Below are positions 8,875-35,162 of a stretch of DNA of 64,000 nucleotides, in pieces; the first letter of the stretch is position 1; each line of letters opens with the position of its first letter. Origin of the DNA: Timonella senegalensis JC301 (GTDB taxonomy: Bacteria > Actinomycetota > Actinomycetes > Actinomycetales > Cellulomonadaceae); contig NZ_HE978641.1 in NCBI RefSeq assembly GCF_000312125.1, forward strand, positions 367,436-431,435, read 5' to 3'. Under the pieces are notes generated by a model, which did not search any database, was not told where the DNA came from, and was given only the letters and a program-made list of their open reading frames with translations. The position numbers and the translations under genes were made by a program.

Positions 8875-9471
8875 TTACAGCGCGGCCACCTGCGGCTGCA
8901 CCGCGCGGTTCCTAGCCCGGGCCATGTGCTCGCGGTACACCCGGAACATGGCGTAGAGCCCGAATATCTCGATGAGCCCGAGGAACGAATACTCATATCG
9001 TGGGACTTGTGTAAAGACGTTCAGGTCTACTCCACCAGCGGCCATCGCCCACCCATCAAAGTCCCACGAGATCTGGCTCGGCAGGGCCCCAAGCAGGACG
9101 AGCGAGACGGGAAACGCCCACTTGTGCACGAGCGTGTGATCGGGGGTCACCCGCAGGACCATATAGATCCATGCACCGATCGCCAGCGCGAGGAGGGCAA
9201 AGACAAGTGCGCGAGCCGTGTGGTCACTCGCCAAGCGGTCCCAGCCAAAGAGCCCATTGATGTAGAGCATGGCGCGGTCAACTCCGCTGTAGTAGTTCTC
9301 ACCGCCCGGCAGCCCCGCCGAGGCCACCAACTTGGCGGGGACGTTGCTCCCACTCTGCGAGAGTCCATTGACAAAGTAAAGGATCGAGCCGGCGAACAGA
9401 ATCAGTGCCGGAAGGATCAGGTTCTTGGCTAGCCGCTCACGGCGGGTGGGAACGCATTCGAACAACTGCAT
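8875..9471 (-). CDS. Integral membrane protein of unknown function
   Basis: 198 residues with four predicted helices: LILPALILFAGSILYFVNGL near residue 20, ARALVFALLALAIGAWIY near 96, WAFPVSLVLLGALPS near 128, and YSFLGLIEIFGLYAMFRVY near 165. The loop between helices 1 and 2 (GENYYSGVDRAMLYINGLFGWD) is likely extracytoplasmic. I do not recognise the family. Start at ATG 9471, before which GAGAG is the only weak ribosome-site candidate; the upstream extension looks non-coding. Single-gene minus unit. Confidence 0.7.
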   Translation of the reverse strand: MQLFECVPTRRERLAKNLILPALILFAGSILYFVNGLSQSGSNVPAKLVASAGLPGGENYYSGVDRAMLYINGLFGWDRLASDHTARALVFALLALAIGAWIYMVLRVTPDHTLVHKWAFPVSLVLLGALPSQISWDFDGWAMAAGGVDLNVFTQVPRYEYSFLGLIEIFGLYAMFRVYREHMARARNRAVQPQVAAL

Positions 9472-21873: not shown

Positions 21874-22010
21874 ACTATAGTCAATAGTCTCGTTCCTGCT
21901 TCTGCGGGTCTTGCCTCCAGACACAATGGCTGGCCGGACTTACAGTCCCTCCACGGGCGTTTAACGTCTCCCTGGAACTTCAAGGCGACAAGGTTTCTCG
22001 TTAGGCCACC
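21874..22010 (-). ncRNA. Candidate omega RNA / right end of a TnpB element
   Basis: Read on the minus strand, the sequence after the tnpB stop has features typical of IS605-type right ends: CGCCCGTGGAGGGAC, GCAGAAGCAGGAACGAG and a terminal ACTAT/ATAGT hairpin at 21874-21888. In IS605-type elements the guide RNA overlaps the tnpB 3' end and runs to this right end. The exact end is not defined. Confidence 0.4.
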
Positions 22011-23223
22011 AAGCCCATGTCAATGCCTGCTACCTGCGCGAGTAAGTTACGTGCGGCATTCACGTCACGATCATGACGCACCCCGCACACACAAACCCAC
22101 ACACGGTCCTTGAGGGTCAACGAAGCGTTGATAGCCCCACAGGCACGGCATAACCTCGAGGACGCAAACCACCGGTCCGCAACCACGATTTCAGAGCCGT
22201 ACCATTCGGCTTTGTACTGCAACTGGCGAGCGAACTCGGCCCACCCCTGCTCGCTGATCGCGCGGGCCAGGCGCCGGTTTTTTACCATTCCAGCCACATT
22301 CAGATCCTCGATAACGATCGCTGTCTTGGTTCTCGTCAGCGACGTCGTGAGTTTGTGGTGGAAGTCTTTGCGCGCGTTCACGGCATCCACATGCGCGGCA
22401 GCAAGACGATCACGCGTCTTGCCCCAGTTGCTCGATCCCTTAACGCGGCGAGCGAGCTCCTTGTTCAGGCGACGGACTCTACGCCGTGTCTTCTTCACAG
22501 CCGCAGGCAAACGGATTTCCTCGACCTGACCGTCTGAGCTAGCAATGGTTGCGAACGTCTTAATGCCCACATCAATACCAACGCTCGGTCCTCCGGAAGG
22601 CACGGTGTGCCGCTCGTTAATGTCGGTGCGGTCCACTTCCAGTTGGAAAGACACGAACCATCGTCCGGCCTGACGGGTCACTTTCGAGCCAAGGACACGG
22701 GCACGAGAGTCAGCAATCCGCTCGGTCAGCCACCCCATGTTTTCCCGGGTCGTAATCTTCCCAACGTTTGGGACGGACACAGTCCATTCGCCTACGGGCT
22801 TCAAACGTGCTTCATCAATACGGAAGTGTTCACCGTGTTTGCGGACCTTGTGTTTCGGGAATCCCATGCGACGGCCCCGACGCGTGCCCTTGCGTGAATC
22901 GCTAAAGTTCTTTAAGGCCGAAGCGAGGTTACGGCACGCTTCTTTCGGCACGCGCGAGGACATGTTCTCGCTAGCGAACCACTCGCACTCGTGGGCGACG
23001 CTACGCCAGTATCGTTCGAGTGCGGGCGCGGACCATCCGAGCAGGTCGGGAAGTTCATTGTCTGAGACTCCTGCTTCACGCGCTATTCTCCGTGCGTCGA
23101 GGGTTCTCTTGACCTCATCCAGGCAACGGCTATACACAACACGAGTGAGGCCAGTGTGCGAAGCAAGCCGCGCGACCTGTTCGGGAGTGGGGCGAGTTCG
23201 ATCTTGAAGCCCTGCTTCTTAAG
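22001..23223 (-). pseudogene. TnpB-family RNA-guided nuclease, N-terminal frameshift
   Basis: IS200/IS605-type TnpB. Intact frame from GTG 23137 to 22001 (378 codons). RuvC catalytic residues are all present: Asp in GIDVGIKTF (about codon 188), Glu in VIEDLN (about 276), Asp in DRDVNAARN (about 358). The zinc ribbon CRAC...CVCG is also intact. The first 28 or so residues are in another frame: KKQGFKIELAPLP (from about 23220) continues as EQVARLASHTGLTRVVYSRCLDEV only if one base is added at the C run at 23183-23185 (CTCCCG where CTCCCCG is expected). No clear start codon precedes KKQGF. No TnpA is present. A left-end-like hairpin GCGTGCC/GGCACGC lies at 23271-23295. Confidence 0.85.
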
Positions 23224-24635: not shown

Positions 24636-26390
24636 GTGGTTAGCAACACAACCTCTGACGCCCACCTCTTAGAGCAAGCAGCGCTCGGCAACATGGCTGC
24701 CTTTGCAACACTCTGGTCACGGCATGAGGCGGCCGCGCGCTTGGCCGCACTACACCTCTCAAACCACATCGATGAGGATGACGTTGTACAAGAGGTGTTC
24801 GCCAACCTGTATGAGGCTGTGCGCGCTGAGGGCGCATCGGCGTTTGAGGGTCCGTTCCGGCAGTACCTGTATGTCTCCGTACGCCACGTGGTCGAAGAAC
24901 ATCACAACATTGCGACATCGGGGGTCCTCCCCCTTGCAGAGTCCGAGGCCGAACCTGCTGAGTTCACCGACGCGATCCTAGACTCCGAGCTGCTCAGCCT
25001 CGCGTTCTCCTCGCTATCCAGCGAGTGGCGCACAATCCTCTGGTACACCGAGGTGGAGCGCATGACGCCCACGGAGATCGCGCCCATCCTTGGGCTCTCT
25101 CCAAACGCAGCATCAGCGCTCGCCTACCGCGCCCGCGAAGGACTACGAGCAGCTTGGCTCCAAGCCCACCTCAAAGCCGCCGACAATGCCGGCGAGTGCG
25201 GGTGGACGATTGGCAAGCTTGGTACGTACACCCGTGGCGTGCTCTCGCGCAGGAAGAGCGAACGCGTAACTGCTCACCTCGAGCACTGTGCGAGCTGCCG
25301 CGGGCTCCACGGAGTTGTTCACGAGGCCGCATCCGCGCTACAGAGCAACATTCTCCCCGCGCTCCTATCCCTCGGAGTACTGCGGTTCGGCGTGGGATCC
25401 CTGTTGGTTCAGGCTCCCGCGAGCGCAACTGCGTCCGCTGCCCTATCCGCTGTCTCGTCCGCGGCCGCTGCGGGAGCGGGGGCAGGTGCAGTCGGAATCG
25501 CGACAAGTTCAGCGGCTAGTACCACCGCGATCACGAGCCTCGTGGCCGCAAGCTCAGCCGTGGCAATCAGCGCGTCGGTGTTCTTGGGGGATCCAGCGCC
25601 CCTCAACCCGGAACTGCACGCCGAGGTTGACAGCTCCACCAACGTGTTGAGTGTGGCGCCCAATGCCTCCTCGGACTTGGGCCATCCCGCGAAATACCCC
25701 AACCGCGAACTCACAGAGTTCCCATTTCACGGCGCCATTGGCCTGCGCGCCGACACGCCCCTAACAGTGGTACCGGGAGGGACAACCGACCCCACCAGCA
25801 CCACCCAAACCCACGTGTCACCCGCCCCTACCCCCAAGCCCCAGGAGCAAAGCGGCGTCCTCGTCACACAGCTAGGGCAGCCCTTCAGTCACGGCTCCAG
25901 CCCGAACCAGTCTCCTGTGCCCGCTTCAGCCCCGACGCCTCCCTCCACAAACGAGGCCGGACCGGGGGTTGGGGCTATCCCGGGTCCTCCCACTGCCTGG
26001 TCACCTGGCTCCGGAGGCGATTCCGGAGCGATCTTGCCGGGCCAGACTCCAGGCGGGTCGGGAGACCTTGGTCTCGGCGGAACGGTTCCGCCCGACGCAG
26101 GGCTTGGTTCGCTCGCTCCATGGGCGCCCACAGGCCCCGCAGACCCTGCAGAAGTTCAACCCGTATTGCCAATGGATCCCGACGATTCAGATTCCAGCGG
26201 CTGGGTGATGCCGCCACCAGACCCACCCCAGTGCAAAGGTGAGGGAGGCGCGTTGGCGGGGCCAGAATCGTCGTTTATCACGGAGGTAAATGGCTCCTGC
26301 CCAGGCCATGAGGTGCCAACGGAAACTAGCCCGCCAACAGTCTGGCCGGAGGACAGCAGCAACGTCGCTGTTCAGGGCAACGAGAACTAG
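24636..26390 (+). CDS. ECF sigma factor fused to zinc anti-sigma motif, TM segment and proline-rich tail (paralogue A)
   Basis: 584 residues. Sigma region 2 about residues 8-80 (DEDDVVQEVFANLYEAVR), region 4 about 115-170 (LSSEWRTILWYTEVERMTPTEIAPILGLSPNAASAL). A ZAS-like zinc motif HLEHCASC is near residue 214. A hydrophobic Ala/Ser/Val-rich stretch about 270-332 probably spans the membrane, followed by about 250 residues rich in Pro, Gly, Ser and Thr, presumably outside the cell. Sigma, anti-sigma and sensor are thus one polypeptide, as in actinobacterial ECF classes with fused anti-sigma domains. GTG start at 24636; no Shine-Dalgarno seen. Two cysteines (PPQCKGEG, GSCPG) occur near the C-terminus. 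Confidence 0.82.
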   Translation: MVSNTTSDAHLLEQAALGNMAAFATLWSRHEAAARLAALHLSNHIDEDDVVQEVFANLYEAVRAEGASAFEGPFRQYLYVSVRHVVEEHHNIATSGVLPLAESEAEPAEFTDAILDSELLSLAFSSLSSEWRTILWYTEVERMTPTEIAPILGLSPNAASALAYRAREGLRAAWLQAHLKAADNAGECGWTIGKLGTYTRGVLSRRKSERVTAHLEHCASCRGLHGVVHEAASALQSNILPALLSLGVLRFGVGSLLVQAPASATASAALSAVSSAAAAGAGAGAVGIATSSAASTTAITSLVAASSAVAISASVFLGDPAPLNPELHAEVDSSTNVLSVAPNASSDLGHPAKYPNRELTEFPFHGAIGLRADTPLTVVPGGTTDPTSTTQTHVSPAPTPKPQEQSGVLVTQLGQPFSHGSSPNQSPVPASAPTPPSTNEAGPGVGAIPGPPTAWSPGSGGDSGAILPGQTPGGSGDLGLGGTVPPDAGLGSLAPWAPTGPADPAEVQPVLPMDPDDSDSSGWVMPPPDPPQCKGEGGALAGPESSFITEVNGSCPGHEVPTETSPPTVWPEDSSNVAVQGNEN

Positions 26391-26470
26391 TCCGGGCACC
26401 GCAGGCATTCACCCGAGATTTCGCGTAACACTTTGGGCACGTTCGAGTCTGTACTTATGTAAAGCAATTC

Positions 26471-26980
26471 ATGGAGTTCGCAACGTCCACCCCGGTTGGC
26501 GTGGCAACCCCACTGCCCATTGGAATTCGCATGCTCGCACCTCAGTATTACGCGCCAGAACTAGCGGCTCAGTCCGTGACGGCACAGGCATACGCGTCTC
26601 TCCCTGGAGAAATGCGAGAGCTCCTGTGGTACCTCGACGTAGAGCATCTCTCGGTCGAGGAGGTCGTCACCTACTCCGGTCTGCCACCGGAGGCAGTCCG
26701 GATGGCTTCCTCGGTGGCCCGCGCGCGCTTTAGGAAGGCCTGGGCCTCCATGCAAACTAAGAACCCGCGCGTGCCTCCGGCTTGCGCGGAGTTTACGAGG
26801 GACGCGATTTTGTTCGAACGACACGAGCTGCCCCAAGCCGTCCGCGATTCCATAGATGACCACCTCGTGCGCTGCATTCGATGCGCAATTCTTGCGGAAG
26901 AAGTTCACCATCTCGAAGAACACCTCGATGCAGCGCTCCTCCCGCTCGTGGTAGGTCCGCCCATCCCGGATGCCCACTAG
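26471..26980 (+). CDS. Truncated sigma region 4 plus zinc motif (paralogue B)
   Basis: 169 residues. It retains a region-4-like part (SLPGEMRELLWYLDVEHLSVEEVVTYSGLPPEAVRMA, residues about 42-80) and a zinc motif HLVRCIRC near residue 136, but has no recognisable region 2, no TM segment and no tail. Either a decayed member of the tandem family or a soluble regulator that competes with or titrates its neighbours. Upstream, CGTAACACTTTGGGCACG may be an ECF-type promoter. Confidence 0.65.
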   Translation: MEFATSTPVGVATPLPIGIRMLAPQYYAPELAAQSVTAQAYASLPGEMRELLWYLDVEHLSVEEVVTYSGLPPEAVRMASSVARARFRKAWASMQTKNPRVPPACAEFTRDAILFERHELPQAVRDSIDDHLVRCIRCAILAEEVHHLEEHLDAALLPLVVGPPIPDAH

Positions 26981-27093
26981 AACAACACACGCCGCCGTTC
27001 GCCTGGGGGGACCGTGAACTATTCACTAATTCAACCTTTCTATGCAACAATGGCCAGCGAGCAGCGTCCTTTCACCCTTTACCCAAGATAGAC

Positions 27094-29217
27094 ATGGCTG
27101 AGCACTCCACCACATCAACAAGCTCCAGTCTCCCCGACACCGACCTCATCGAGGCCTTACGTTCCGGGGATGAATCCGCATACTCCATACTGTGGGAAAG
27201 GCACTATCCAGCGGCGGTTCGGGCAGCACGGGCAATGACGTCCACGCACGAACCGGAAGACCTCGCTCAAGAGGCTTTTACGCGGATCTACCAGTCGCTT
27301 CTCAATGGCAAGGGCCCAACAGAGGCGTTCCGTGCCTACCTATACACAACGCTCAAGAGCGTCTCCATTGCGTGGTCCGGCAAGGTCGCTTCCACCGTGG
27401 ATATCACCACGCAAGAGCACGAACTCATCTCTGAAGAGGACCTCGCCTCACTGACCGAGGACAAGGCCTTCACCGCACGCGCATTCAAGAACCTCCCCAC
27501 CGACTGGCGCACAGTCCTCTGGTACACGGAGGTCGAAGGAATGACCCCAGCGGAGGTCGCTCCGCTCATGGGCCTTTCCGCCCGAGCCGTATCCACACTG
27601 GCTTTCCGTGCTCGCGAGGGTTTGAGGTCCTCGTGGCTCCAAGCACACGTGTCTGGTGGCAGCGACCGCCCAACGCAGGAATGCGAGTGGACCGAGAACA
27701 ACCTCGCCGCGTATGCCCGCGACTCGCTGAGCGCGCGGCGCACCGAGCGCATCCAGGCGCACCTCAATGAGTGCACGCGCTGCTCGCTCATGTTTATCGA
27801 ACTTCAAGAGGTTGAGTCTTCCCTGCGTGGAATTCTGCTCCCTCTCCTCCTCGGCGTCGCTCCAGCATCCCTGTGGGCTGTTGGTGGTACTGGGACAGCT
27901 GCTGTGGGGGCAACATCCCTCACGGGTGCCCTCACTCAGATTCCTGGGAAGATCCGCGACTGGGCGGCCGCAAACACTGGCACGGCTGCCGTAGCAGGCA
28001 CTAGTGGCGCTTTGGCCGTTGCCCTTGCTGTCACTGCAGCCGTCGCCCTGAACGATCCCGAACCGACACCGCCGCCTGCGGCCACGGGCCCGAGCGCACC
28101 CGCAGCAGTGAGTGCTCCCGGAAGTGGTTCTGCCACACAACCAGCACCCACTGACGCGGACAGCCCCGAATCTGACGAGCCGTCCGAGACGACCACACCG
28201 ATCAACCCGCCTACCGCCCAGGTTCCTAGTGCCGGGCCTCTCCCCTCTACGAGCGCGCCACAACCACCTCCGGCGACCCCGAGCGCTACCCAGACTCCAG
28301 ACGTGGCCCCGCCAAATAAGTTCCCGACGCTTCCCCCGATCAAGCCTGTGGTGCCGCTCCCACCGCTTCCAACGGTTGATCCGACGCCTACTGAAGAGCC
28401 AACTGAGGAGCCCACGGGCGAACCCACTGTTGACCCAACACCCACGGACGAACCCACCGATGAGCCAACAGAGGAACCCACCACTCCCCCAGCGGACCTC
28501 GTAGTCGCGGACTTCTCCACCGAACCGAGCTACTGGTTCCCCCAGCTAAGCGGTACAGCCACTCCAGGGAGCACAATCCAACTTGTTGACGTGAACGGCT
28601 CAACAACCCGCTCCACGTTCACCGCAGGATCGGATGCTCAGTTGACCTCCCAAGCTGGGAAGGTTCTGGGATCCGTTGCCACAGGCCAAGACGGCGCGTG
28701 GACGCTCTCGGTGTCTGCCGAGGTCCTCACGAGCGGTGTACGCTCCTACCAGATCCAGCAGCTTGTGGACGGTGAGTTCAAGGACGCAACGTCGTTCTCA
28801 TTCGAGTACATGACACCGGACTCAGCGTTCCCGATCTCAAACTTGGTGGAGTGTTACAAGAGCGGCAACTCCTGGAACCTGGTCTCCAACTGGTACGACA
28901 TCACCCCTGACGTACCGCTGCGTACCACCAACCGTGACATCACGCTGTGCGTGTACTTCGAGGTCCCATCTGGTTCGAACGGCCAGGGCAACAAGCCATT
29001 CGAGTATGTAGATGTTGAGGCAAACGGAGTGGTCATGCGAGAGGAACTCCGAATCTCCGCTCGCCTCAAGCGCGCCTACATTGTGTGGGAGACCAACACG
29101 GGAACCCTCAACGATCTCAACTCGCTGCGCCTGCGTGCCCTCGTGGGGCCACAGGATGACCAGCCTACGGACTGGACCTCCCCATTCACCTTTGGCTACG
29201 TCGAGACCAGCGGCTAG
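27094..29217 (+). CDS. ECF sigma factor fused to zinc anti-sigma motif, TM helix and exported domain (paralogue C)
   Basis: 707 residues. Region 2 about 15-80 (EPEDLAQEAFTRIYQSLL), region 4 about 125-185 (LPTDWRTVLWYTEVEGMTPAEVAPLMGLSARAVSTL), zinc motif HLNECTRC near 223, TM helix GALAVALAVTAAVAL about 304-318. Then a Pro/Thr/Glu linker (325-470) with PTEEPTEEPT-type repeats, and a C-terminal beta-rich domain (470-707; Ig-like SGTATPGSTIQLVDVNGST start). The layout suggests an extracytoplasmic sensing or wall-binding domain tied directly to a sigma factor. ATG 27094 chosen at the domain start. Closest to paralogue A in the sigma part (WRTxLWYTEVExMTPxEx). Confidence 0.84.
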   Translation: MAEHSTTSTSSSLPDTDLIEALRSGDESAYSILWERHYPAAVRAARAMTSTHEPEDLAQEAFTRIYQSLLNGKGPTEAFRAYLYTTLKSVSIAWSGKVASTVDITTQEHELISEEDLASLTEDKAFTARAFKNLPTDWRTVLWYTEVEGMTPAEVAPLMGLSARAVSTLAFRAREGLRSSWLQAHVSGGSDRPTQECEWTENNLAAYARDSLSARRTERIQAHLNECTRCSLMFIELQEVESSLRGILLPLLLGVAPASLWAVGGTGTAAVGATSLTGALTQIPGKIRDWAAANTGTAAVAGTSGALAVALAVTAAVALNDPEPTPPPAATGPSAPAAVSAPGSGSATQPAPTDADSPESDEPSETTTPINPPTAQVPSAGPLPSTSAPQPPPATPSATQTPDVAPPNKFPTLPPIKPVVPLPPLPTVDPTPTEEPTEEPTGEPTVDPTPTDEPTDEPTEEPTTPPADLVVADFSTEPSYWFPQLSGTATPGSTIQLVDVNGSTTRSTFTAGSDAQLTSQAGKVLGSVATGQDGAWTLSVSAEVLTSGVRSYQIQQLVDGEFKDATSFSFEYMTPDSAFPISNLVECYKSGNSWNLVSNWYDITPDVPLRTTNRDITLCVYFEVPSGSNGQGNKPFEYVDVEANGVVMREELRISARLKRAYIVWETNTGTLNDLNSLRLRALVGPQDDQPTDWTSPFTFGYVETSG

Positions 29218-31641: not shown

Positions 31642-32172
31642 CTACCGATCGTCTTCGTCGTTATCGCCACTGTCTTTATCGTCTTCATCGTCATAGTCGT
31701 CGGCGTTGCGATAGTCATCATCATCGGCATCGTCGCCTTCTGGGCCCTCTTCTGGTTCGCGAGCGGGACTACCAGACTCGTCGAACACTCCGCCTGAGCC
31801 AGCCCTGCGGTCAGCCGCACCGGGGAGACCCACCTCCGGCGCTTCAAGTACTGCCTCCACCGTCCCCAGTTCAGTGGTTCCGATCGTCAGAATGCCTTCC
31901 TTGAACACCACGGGGCGCTCACCATCAAGTACCTTGAGGAACGCCCGCTCCTGCTCCATCGCTTCGGGTGGTCCCGCCATCATGGTGGATCCGAGCGCGC
32001 CGAAGGACAGTACGTTCTCCTTATAGGTAAAGGGGCCAAAGAAGCGGTTAATGCTTGCGCGTCCCGTAATTTGCCCCTCAGCGTTGAACTCAAACTCTGG
32101 AGTAAAGTCCGCCATCACAGGCTGGCCATTTACTGCGGTTACCCGCCACTTTCCACTCATCAACTCGTCCAT
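31642..32172 (-). CDS. META-domain protein with acidic C-terminal tail
   Basis: 176 residues. META/HslJ-like domain about residues 5-108: GKWRVTAVNGQPV, the NRFFGPFTY turn and MEQERAFLKVLDG. No signal peptide, unlike most HslJ proteins. The last 60 residues are extremely rich in Asp and Glu (DDADDDDYRN, DDYDDEDDKD), a low-complexity tail of unknown use. ATG 32172 is six bases after TACTTT, a leaderless pattern; upstream frame overlaps a tRNA terminator. Confidence 0.8.
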   Translation of the reverse strand: MDELMSGKWRVTAVNGQPVMADFTPEFEFNAEGQITGRASINRFFGPFTYKENVLSFGALGSTMMAGPPEAMEQERAFLKVLDGERPVVFKEGILTIGTTELGTVEAVLEAPEVGLPGAADRRAGSGGVFDESGSPAREPEEGPEGDDADDDDYRNADDYDDEDDKDSGDNDEDDR

Positions 32173-32249
32173 AGTGCGAAAGTAGCACCACGATTGGGGA
32201 ATAGCACGGCCACTTGCGTAAATACACCCGGCGGAGGGGAAACAAAAAA

Positions 32250-32269
32250 CCCCACCGTTTCCGGTGGGG
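32250..32269 (-). terminator. Terminator of first tRNA-Arg
   Basis: CCCCACCG / CGGTGGGG stem, followed on the minus strand by six T (A run at 32244-32249). Confidence 0.9.
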
Positions 32270-32277
32270 CTTGTCTG

Positions 32278-32350
32278 TGCGCTCGGAGGGATTCGAACCC
32301 CCAACCTTCTGATCCGTAGTCAGATGCTCTATCCGTTGAGCTACGAACGC
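32278..32350 (-). tRNA. tRNA-Arg (anticodon ACG), copy 1
   Basis: 73-base cloverleaf: acceptor GCGTTCG/CGAGCGC, D-arm AGCTCAACGGATAGAGC, anticodon loop CTACGGA (anticodon ACG, read as ICG), T-arm GGGGGTTCGAATCCC. CCA is not encoded. Identical to the copy at 35410-35482. Confidence 0.98.
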
Positions 32351-33842: not shown

Positions 33843-35162
33843 ATGAAACTAACCTCGCGGATCCTCGTTGCGGCACCTCTCGCAGCAGCCCTCACCTTTG
33901 GGCTAGCAGCTGTTCCGGCAACCGCAGCACCGGCGGCAACAAGCGTTGCCGGCGTCTACACCGCAACCGTCGCAGTACCCAAAATTACCAGCCAGCCAAA
34001 GTCAACCACCGTGGTTTCCGGCAAGACAGCAACATTCACCGTCAAGGCTTCATCCAGCGGACTCAAGTACCAGTGGTACGTGAAGAGCCCTGGCTCAACC
34101 AAGTGGGTCAAGATCTCTGGCACCGCCGCCACCAAGTCGTCCTACTCGGTCAAGACAACCACCAAGCTCAACAAGGCACAGTACCGCGTTAAGGTCTCCA
34201 ACAAGCGGGGTTCCGTAACCTCCAGCGCCGCCACGCTCGCGGTTGTCACAACCCCCAAGATCACGTCCCAGCCAAAGGATGTCTCTACTCCAGTTGGCGC
34301 ATCTACCACACTCAAGGTGTCGACCTCCGGCGGTTCGCTGTCGTATAAGTGGCAGAAGTACTACTCCACGGGATGGAAGACCATCTCTGGCGCCACCAAG
34401 AGCTCCTTCACCACCAAGGCAACTAAGGGTACAAACAAGTACCGTGTGATCGTCTCGAACAAGGCTGGCAAGGTAACTTCACGCACGACCTCCGTCATCG
34501 GCACCAAGCCAAAGATCACCACACAGCCTAAGAACTTTGAAGCCGACACTGGCACTACCGTCACGTTCAAGGTCGCAGCTTCCGGATCTCCGCTCACCTA
34601 CAAATGGCAGCGAAAGCTGAGCGACTCGGATACCTGGAAGACTATTAGTGGGGCTACTTCCTCCACCTTGAAGTTCACTGCCGACTCCTCGCTTGAGCTT
34701 TCGTCCTACCGCGTGATCGTTACCAACAGCGTTGGAAGTGTCACGTCCTCGACAGTCGACTTGTTTGTAAATTCGAGCGTGACTGACCCCATCCAGGACA
34801 ACCAGACTTTTGCTCTATGGAACTGGCTCGGTGCGGTCTTCGACCAGTACAAGGAAGCGGATCCTTATGACTCGGAGCGCATGGACCTCTGGGCCAGCAT
34901 CGATCTGATGAACTGGAGCGATGAGTACCTAGACCCTTCGTATGACATCGCGATCCTCTACCAGGCCGCAAACGGTCAGCTCTTCGATTCCAATGGTTAC
35001 TTTGTAGAGGGCAACGGCATTGACTCGCTCGGCTACATGTCCCCGGCCGAATGGGCGACTGCTGCAATCCTCGCGAACGTGCCTGCGGGGGCAGAAATTG
35101 GCGGCGTTTGGGTCATCTACGATGCCTCTGGCGACGTCGTACAGTACATCGCCGGTTTCTAG
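33843..35162 (+). CDS. Secreted protein with three Ig-like domains
   Basis: 439 residues. Signal peptide with cleavage after about residue 29 (LAAVPATA-AP). Three bacterial Ig-like repeats follow, each starting PKITSQPK or PKITTQPK (about residues 46, 139, 222) and holding the YQWYVK / YKWQKYY / YKWQRKL tryptophan and closing YRVxVSN. The C-terminal 130 residues (from DPIQDNQTFALW) are acidic, with no sortase LPXTG signal, so the protein is probably released or bound non-covalently. GAGGAG precedes the ATG. Ends before an 8-base tandem repeat. Confidence 0.88.
   Translation: MKLTSRILVAAPLAAALTFGLAAVPATAAPAATSVAGVYTATVAVPKITSQPKSTTVVSGKTATFTVKASSSGLKYQWYVKSPGSTKWVKISGTAATKSSYSVKTTTKLNKAQYRVKVSNKRGSVTSSAATLAVVTTPKITSQPKDVSTPVGASTTLKVSTSGGSLSYKWQKYYSTGWKTISGATKSSFTTKATKGTNKYRVIVSNKAGKVTSRTTSVIGTKPKITTQPKNFEADTGTTVTFKVAASGSPLTYKWQRKLSDSDTWKTISGATSSTLKFTADSSLELSSYRVIVTNSVGSVTSSTVDLFVNSSVTDPIQDNQTFALWNWLGAVFDQYKEADPYDSERMDLWASIDLMNWSDEYLDPSYDIAILYQAANGQLFDSNGYFVEGNGIDSLGYMSPAEWATAAILANVPAGAEIGGVWVIYDASGDVVQYIAGF

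Follow-up and report, generated by a model that had tools for sequence, protein, structure and literature searches.

Timonella senegalensis JC301 is a gut actinobacterium with a genome of 3,009,940 bases in 6 contigs. A 64-kb stretch of this genome (the window; G+C about 60%) was analyzed, in which three neighboring genes on the same strand, here called P1, P2 and P3 (24636-29217), encode proteins related to extracytoplasmic function (ECF) sigma factors. An initial annotation of the window had reported three adjacent genes at these coordinates, each joining sigma region 4 to an HxxxCxxC anti-sigma motif, and this was borne out, in the case of P2 by alignment together with a Pfam score under cut-off. 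Fused sigma/anti-sigma proteins are common in Actinobacteria, but few have been characterized and how they are switched is mostly guesswork. P1 and P3 are further members of this widespread and already known actinobacterial kind; what is novel at the locus is their conserved half-length partner, P2. The start of P3 was placed at the ATG at 27094, which fits the family alignment, instead of the open reading frame (ORF) start at 26881 listed earlier. The features of P1 and P3 are as follows, with orthologs named by genome (G014 of genus g15, G016 and G200 of genus g17) and ZAS standing for zinc anti-sigma.

24636..26390, + strand: P1, 584 residues, GTG start; fused ECF sigma factor, ZAS anti-sigma domain, membrane helix and Pro-Ser-Gly-rich tail; orthologs G016, G200
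24735..24887, + strand: P1 sigma region 2, residues 34-84; Pfam Sigma70_r2 15 bits, under cut-off
24990..25139, + strand: P1 sigma region 4, residues 119-168; Pfam Sigma70_r4_2 22 bits, under cut-off
25200..25301, + strand: P1 zinc anti-sigma domain, residues 189-222; Pfam zf-HC2 above cut-off
25530..25586, + strand: P1 likely sole membrane helix, residues 299-317; from hydropathy and charge bias
25587..26387, + strand: P1 outside tail, Pro/Ser/Gly-rich, 267 residues
27094..29217, + strand: P3, 707 residues; fused ECF sigma factor, ZAS domain, membrane helix, PT-linker and beta-domain tail; ortholog G014
27190..27366, + strand: P3 sigma region 2, residues 33-91; Pfam above cut-off
27481..27618, + strand: P3 sigma region 4, residues 130-175; Pfam above cut-off
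27682..27783, + strand: P3 zinc anti-sigma domain, residues 197-230; Pfam zf-HC2 above cut-off
27829..27885, + strand: P3 first hydrophobic segment, residues 246-264, interpreted as helix 4 of the anti-sigma domain; from hydropathy, with a model helix at 228-262
27988..28044, + strand: P3 likely sole membrane helix, residues 299-317; from hydropathy and charge bias, with low model confidence here
28483..28809, + strand: P3 Ig-like (immunoglobulin-like) beta domain, residues 464-572; from predicted structure and structure comparison
28840..29145, + strand: P3 second predicted beta region, residues 583-684; mostly low model confidence

The domain search called for in the initial annotation found regions 2 and 4, which together mark an ECF sigma factor, in P1 and P3 along with the ZAS domain, and region 4 only in P2. 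Despite their low Pfam scores, the two sigma regions of P1 are rightly positioned, and the whole sigma70-ECF model of NCBIfam (TIGR02937, cut-off 42.9 bits) was passed by P1 with 49.0 bits and by P3 with 57.7 bits. The ZAS zinc motif stands immediately C-terminal of sigma4 in P1, in P3 and in 38/38 aligned family members. Fused classes of this type are known in actinobacteria, as had been pointed out: in ECF48, ECF52 and ECF53 the sigma factor carries a fused ZAS domain together with one or two membrane helices and a long extension, and their activation is expected to be proteolytic (PMC8999054, PMC5826349). By hydropathy and charge bias, P1 and P3 fit this layout both in the number of their membrane helices and in having such an extension. 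By their sequences, P1 and P3 are ECF sigma factors with a fused ZAS anti-sigma domain, of the ECF48/52/53 kind. An assignment to ECF52 was dismissed, since the carbohydrate-binding module typical of that group gave no Pfam match in P1, P3 or the 38 family members scanned.

The two tails agree with the description given earlier, both in length (250-390 residues had been stated for the two genes that also carry region 2 and a membrane segment) and in type. The P1 tail is rich in Pro, Ser and Gly, and no Pfam domain was found in it. The P3 tail of 390 residues has a PT/E linker and, after it, the Ig-like beta domain, which in structure comparison matched domains of SiiE and Bap with Z 9.8-10 and a root-mean-square deviation (rmsd) of 2.2-2.5 A over about 80 residues. 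The idea of sigma factor, anti-sigma factor and sensor in a single chain is supported for P1 and P3.

P2 differs from both of its neighbors, and its features are these.

26471..26980, + strand: P2, 169 residues; sigma region 4 and ZAS domain only; orthologs G014, G016, G200
26570..26761, + strand: P2 sigma4 fold; AlphaFold core with a predicted local distance difference test (pLDDT) value above 90; V82 in place of the conserved -35-contacting arginine
26783..26884, + strand: P2 zinc anti-sigma core; C105, H131, C135, C138, ligands retained in 4/4 orthologs
26924..26956, + strand: P2 anti-sigma helix-4 segment, ending in ALLPLVVG; conserved in P2s and full-length proteins

No sigma region 2 was found in P2 by Pfam and NCBIfam searches, and the upstream space is too short to hold one; no membrane helix was found by hydropathy, and unlike P1 and P3 the protein is without an outside tail. 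Its region 4 scored 14.1 bits in Pfam, under cut-off, zf-HC2 gave no match at E up to 1, and no curated cut-off was passed. P2 was identified by alignment, conservation and an AlphaFold model with mean pLDDT 82.5. In the alignment the CHCC motif (HLVRCIRC) places four zinc ligands in register with those of 66 relatives, and it contains the class I anti-sigma pattern, Hx3Cx2C with an upstream Cys/His ligand. The N-terminal part of the model matched sigma4 of SigL (3hug) with Z 9.7 and 3.7 A over 73 residues. The possibility that P2 is a misread or frameshifted full-length gene was dismissed, given a clean open frame in four genomes and a P1-P2 gap of just 80 bases. The three-gene array of the initial annotation consequently holds as regards location, region 4 and zinc motif, but P2 differs from its neighbors in its set of domains and not just in length.

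Four P2 proteins were compared with 66 full-length relatives residue by residue, in P3 numbering. The zinc ligands C197, H223, C227 and C230 and the sigma4 core residues L134, L142, W143, E148, G160, A173 and R174 are kept in 4/4 P2s, and the helix-4 residues E236 and P250 have equivalents in 4/4 as well. R172, on the other hand, is present in 65/66 full-length relatives and in 0/4 P2s, and R178 is lost in 3/4. R172 of P3 aligns to R176 of Escherichia coli sigmaE, which touches the -35 base G-35 (PMC6713349). Because the equivalent of this arginine is absent from all four, P2 looks like an intact anti-sigma domain fused to a sigma4 domain that has ceased to read promoters. The earlier description saw the unusual feature of the locus in the tails; in our analysis it is the conserved P2, which is without region 2 and this key DNA-contact residue.

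Orthologs of P2 were found in the same chromosomal position in G014, G016 and G200, so that, counting the host of the window, P2 is known from four genomes in three genera. MFS-transporter and GNAT genes adjoin the locus on one flank, and in g17 a gene for a 206-residue product lies on the opposite flank. In G014 the order is P2 followed by a full-length gene, and in G016 and G200 a full-length gene followed by P2 with a gap of 25-38 bases. In a tree the P2 proteins formed a clade (support 100/97), P3 grouped with the full-length gene of G014 (99/95), and P1 with those of G016 and G200 (97/89); when the entire sigma-ZAS region was used, support for the P3 and P1 groups was 100/99 and 99/99, respectively. 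The branches of the P2 clade are long, that of G014 above all, and the monophyly of the P2s therefore leans on synteny as well as on the tree. A recent duplication giving P1 and P3 within the host genome was rejected, as a clade of P1 and P3 had an approximately unbiased test value (p-AU) of 0.0007. In the simplest history, the trees and gene order indicate an ancestral P1-P2-P3 triad from which g17 lost P3 and g15 lost P1, with P2 retained throughout. No second tandem of this type was found among 100 loci examined with flanks, and no further stand-alone P2 among the matches listed for 221 genomes of the family and 396 of the order.

The loss of region 2, membrane helix and tail from P2 could also be explained if P2 were a slowly decaying, functionless relic of a full-length paralog beside two ordinary ECF48/52/53-like proteins. 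The long P2 branches, the small number of genomes and the Pfam scores under cut-off are in line with such a relic. However, open frame, zinc ligands and helix 4 are preserved across three genera at 31-35% identity to P2 of the window, and P2 is present in 4/4 genomes although P1 or P3 was lost. Between G016 and G200, which belong to one genus, the nonsynonymous rate (dN) of P2 was 0.49, far below its synonymous rate (dS) of 2.9, a saturated value, as compared with a dN of 0.38 and a dS of 1.39 for P1, and codon positions 1 and 2 of P2 were better preserved than position 3. As judged from these substitutions, purifying selection acts on P2, which evolves faster but is no debris, and we regard the relic as unlikely.

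In the interpretation we prefer, P1 and P3 act as one-component ECF sigma factors anchored in the membrane, and P2 as a soluble, co-encoded anti-sigma buffer; to this view we give about an even chance. In class I anti-sigma factors, helices 1-3 of the anti-sigma domain (ASDI) lie on sigma4 and helix 4 on sigma2 (PMC7406223). In P1 and P3 the cytoplasmic sigma2 and sigma4 would likewise be held off by their own fused zinc domain, with its three-helix bundle on sigma4 and helix 4, the first hydrophobic segment, on sigma2. A single membrane helix would carry the Pro-rich arm to the outside, where the arm of P3 would end in its Ig-like domains, and a signal acting on the arm would free the active sigma factor, most likely by regulated intramembrane proteolysis. 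In P2 the zinc bundle may be filled by the protein's own sigma4, so that helix 4 would stay available for binding the sigma2 of P1 or P3 after their release; such a buffer could be zinc- or redox-sensitive.

In the AlphaFold model of P3, sigma2, sigma4 and ZAS are confidently predicted, and the zinc motif is followed by a long helix (228-262) in the position expected for helix 4. The placement of sigma2 relative to sigma4 in this model deviates by an rmsd of 9.8-14.6 A from anti-sigma-bound chains (5wur, 1or7, 4cxf, 4nqw) and by 23-28 A from polymerase-bound chains (6jbq, 6dv9, 5zx2, 9m9e). The predicted arrangement is nearer to the anti-sigma-bound forms and lends weak support to autoinhibition. 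Several points weigh against our interpretation. The compact P3 model is weak evidence, as predictors favor compactness and the rmsd to anti-sigma-bound forms is still about 10-15 A. The sigma4 of P2 might occupy the whole of its anti-sigma domain and leave none for partners. Over the shared domain, P2 changes at about twice the rate of P1, which may reflect relaxed constraint, and it was found in only four genomes. Finally, P1 and P3 might cross the membrane with both of their hydrophobic segments, in which case their tails would lie inside.

A bolder version takes P2 as the founder of a new kind of regulator. It would be a soluble sigma4-anti-sigma protein standing on its own, derived from a fused ECF protein that lost sigma2, the membrane helix and the ability to recognize promoters; fixed in the middle of an ancestral three-gene module, it would act in trans on P1 and P3. 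We put this forward tentatively, at somewhat less than even chances. P2 would then show how a one-component membrane system can gain a soluble regulator by gene duplication and loss of parts. As a natural half-protein, it can also serve as a probe of which contacts keep fused sigma/anti-sigma proteins off.

The opposite sign of action has been considered as well. P2 could be an anti-anti-sigma decoy that uses its degenerate sigma4 to compete for the zinc bundles of the other two proteins, thereby helping to free the sigma factors of P1 and P3. Sigma mimicry is an established principle, exemplified by PhyR, whose sigma-like domain titrates NepR (PMC4814048), and P2 may be an analog in having a sigma-like domain that has ceased to drive transcription and regulates by protein binding. 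A sigma4 core that is retained while the DNA-contact arginine is lost is what would be expected of a mimic. PhyR, however, is a whole-sigma mimic with a receiver domain, whereas P2 has sigma4 and the anti-sigma domain only; neither a receiver domain nor a whole sigma-like domain was found in P2 with Pfam and NCBIfam. P2 is without any other switch domain too, and its sigma4 would already be engaged in cis by the complete anti-sigma domain of the same chain. The decoy seems to us improbable, to the same degree as the relic.

For P1 and P3 themselves, signaling could proceed by a change of shape instead of cleavage, the tail pulling or binding, the anti-sigma domain loosening and the sigma factor becoming active while still tethered. 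No cleavage site can be read from the P1 and P3 sequences, and no dedicated site-1 protease was seen in the scanned part of the neighborhood. The published model for this kind of protein is, however, release by proteolysis (PMC8999054, PMC5826349), and two genes of the M50 site-2-protease type are present in the host genome. SCO4117 and the similar IutY favor release of a truncated sigma factor (PMC5826349, PMC8999054). IutY of Pseudomonas putida (ECF243) is a sigma factor fused to a membrane anti-sigma factor and freed by Prc and RseP (PMC8999054), although it belongs to a Gram-negative iron-signaling partner system and its tail is unrelated. The initial annotation had offered proteolysis and direct conformational signaling side by side; the former is the better founded, and the latter is kept as a rival that we consider decidedly unlikely.

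The topology of P1 and P3 was assessed from hydropathy and charge. Two hydrophobic segments are present in P1, in P3 and in most relatives. When the 15 residues before the second segment were compared with the 15 after it, the former were more positive in 46/59 relatives, less positive in 1/59 and tied in 12/59. Because of this charge bias the second segment is likely the lone membrane helix with the tail outside, in agreement with the membrane segment reported earlier for P1 and P3, and two spanning helices are disfavored. The first segment, by its spacing from the zinc motif that precedes it, lies where anti-sigma helix 4 would be expected, and it is retained in the soluble P2. A cytoplasmic tail, by which P1 and P3 would be no surface sensors, could be argued from both segments exceeding the hydropathy cut-off in most relatives, but the charge bias, the helix-4 position of the first segment and the Ig-like adhesin-type domains and PT linkers, which are typically extracellular, make it highly improbable.

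Among known systems, the experimental case of the fused kind is SCO4117 of Streptomyces coelicolor, a member of ECF52 (PMC5826349). It shares with P1 and P3 an actinobacterial ECF sigma factor, a zinc-finger anti-sigma domain, a membrane region and a long Pro-rich outside extension, and release by proteolysis was proposed for it as we propose for P1 and P3. It differs in that the carbohydrate-binding module of ECF52 was not found here, where the P3 tail ends in Ig-like domains, and in being the sole ECF52 protein of its genome, whereas two full-length proteins and one half-length protein adjoin in the window. The groups ECF48 and ECF53 (PMC8999054) are also similar in their C-terminal ZAS fusion, one or two membrane helices, an extension of up to about 400 residues and occurrence in Actinobacteria, but we found no linked sigma4-ZAS protein described for them. 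Nor did the open-access literature, which leaves subscription journals mostly outside, yield any description of a linked sigma4-anti-sigma protein that lacks region 2. Soluble zinc anti-sigma factors are common. The class I anti-sigma factors ChrR, RsiW and RslA have the C-H-C-C zinc motif and four-helix layout seen in P2 and in the fused domains; P2 differs from them in bearing a sigma4 domain N-terminal to the anti-sigma domain.

The wider family was surveyed in related genomes. With the sigma-ZAS part of P3 as query, 46/59 related genomes gave a match at E 1e-5 or better. A scan of genome contigs with P3 alone gave no confirmed relative, the peptide patterns being too specific, and a 15-row alignment used as query gave 80 loci, with relatives in Microbacteriaceae, Promicromonosporaceae, Demequina, Nocardioides, Kribbella, Pseudonocardiaceae and Glycomyces. 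The tails in the family range from fewer than 100 to more than 1700 residues and have Pro/Thr linkers, some with Ig-like, cadherin-like or CARDB domains. Differing tails had been taken as a mark of the array, but Pro/Thr linkers, either alone or together with Ig-like domains, are usual across the family at large.

The check for shared promoter motifs gave a strong motif across this wider family and a weak site only at the triad. The ECF-type motif GCGTCAT-N16-CGTCTC was found upstream of the fused sigma genes at 39/80 loci (L088-L167). The density of the search pattern was 0.875/kb upstream versus 0.064/kb in the loci overall, about 14-fold, and the commonest bipartite word occurred in 24/80 upstream regions versus 6-8 in shuffles. 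The motif is a direct handle on the target genes of the wider family. It points toward the sigma gene at some loci and away from it at others, and both orientations occur in L106 and L112. At many loci where it points away there is a divergent gene for a product of about 270-300 residues with DPLTGL and GGD/GGE motifs (on the - strand, for example L139:4990-5838, L150:628-1488, L161:4967-5773 and L130:5014-5817), and relatives of it were found in more than 50 loci. Its product has no Pfam match and looks, by these motifs, like a degenerate GGDEF protein, which may connect the sigma family with regulation of the cyclic di-GMP type. The P1-P2-P3 triad is without such a neighbor. The site at the triad is the following.

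26416..26455, + strand: weak candidate ECF-type promoter, GCGTAACAC-N14-AGTCTG, upstream of P2; 6.9 bits versus a family-site median of 28.8

The family motif was dismissed as an autoregulatory promoter of the triad, as the window has no good site. An exact match in G014 was not used either; it lies inside the P2 coding sequence, where the reversed-pattern control is about as frequent. In the g17 genomes (L069, L070) a palindrome-like sequence, GTTCGGC(T/A)GTCCGAACAATTTAGT, lies just upstream of the P1 ortholog (L069, about 9370-9400) and is possibly an operator.

Just upstream of the array, an ORF on the - strand (22001-23137) looks, by its sequence, like an IS605-type OrfB/TnpB protein with a C-terminal zinc ribbon; it is absent from the syntenic loci of relatives. 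Further along, 31642-32304 (- strand) encodes a META-domain protein whose C-terminal tail is very acidic and rich in Asp/Glu. The product of 33843-35162 (+ strand) has two domains of the immunoglobulin I-set-like type (E 3e-15), which is unusual for a bacterial protein. Near the beginning of the window an ORF without a Pfam domain (101-1036, + strand) is piecewise 80-95% identical to ORFs near giant-tail sigma genes of other genera (L080-L082), and it probably overlaps or runs antisense to a highly conserved element.

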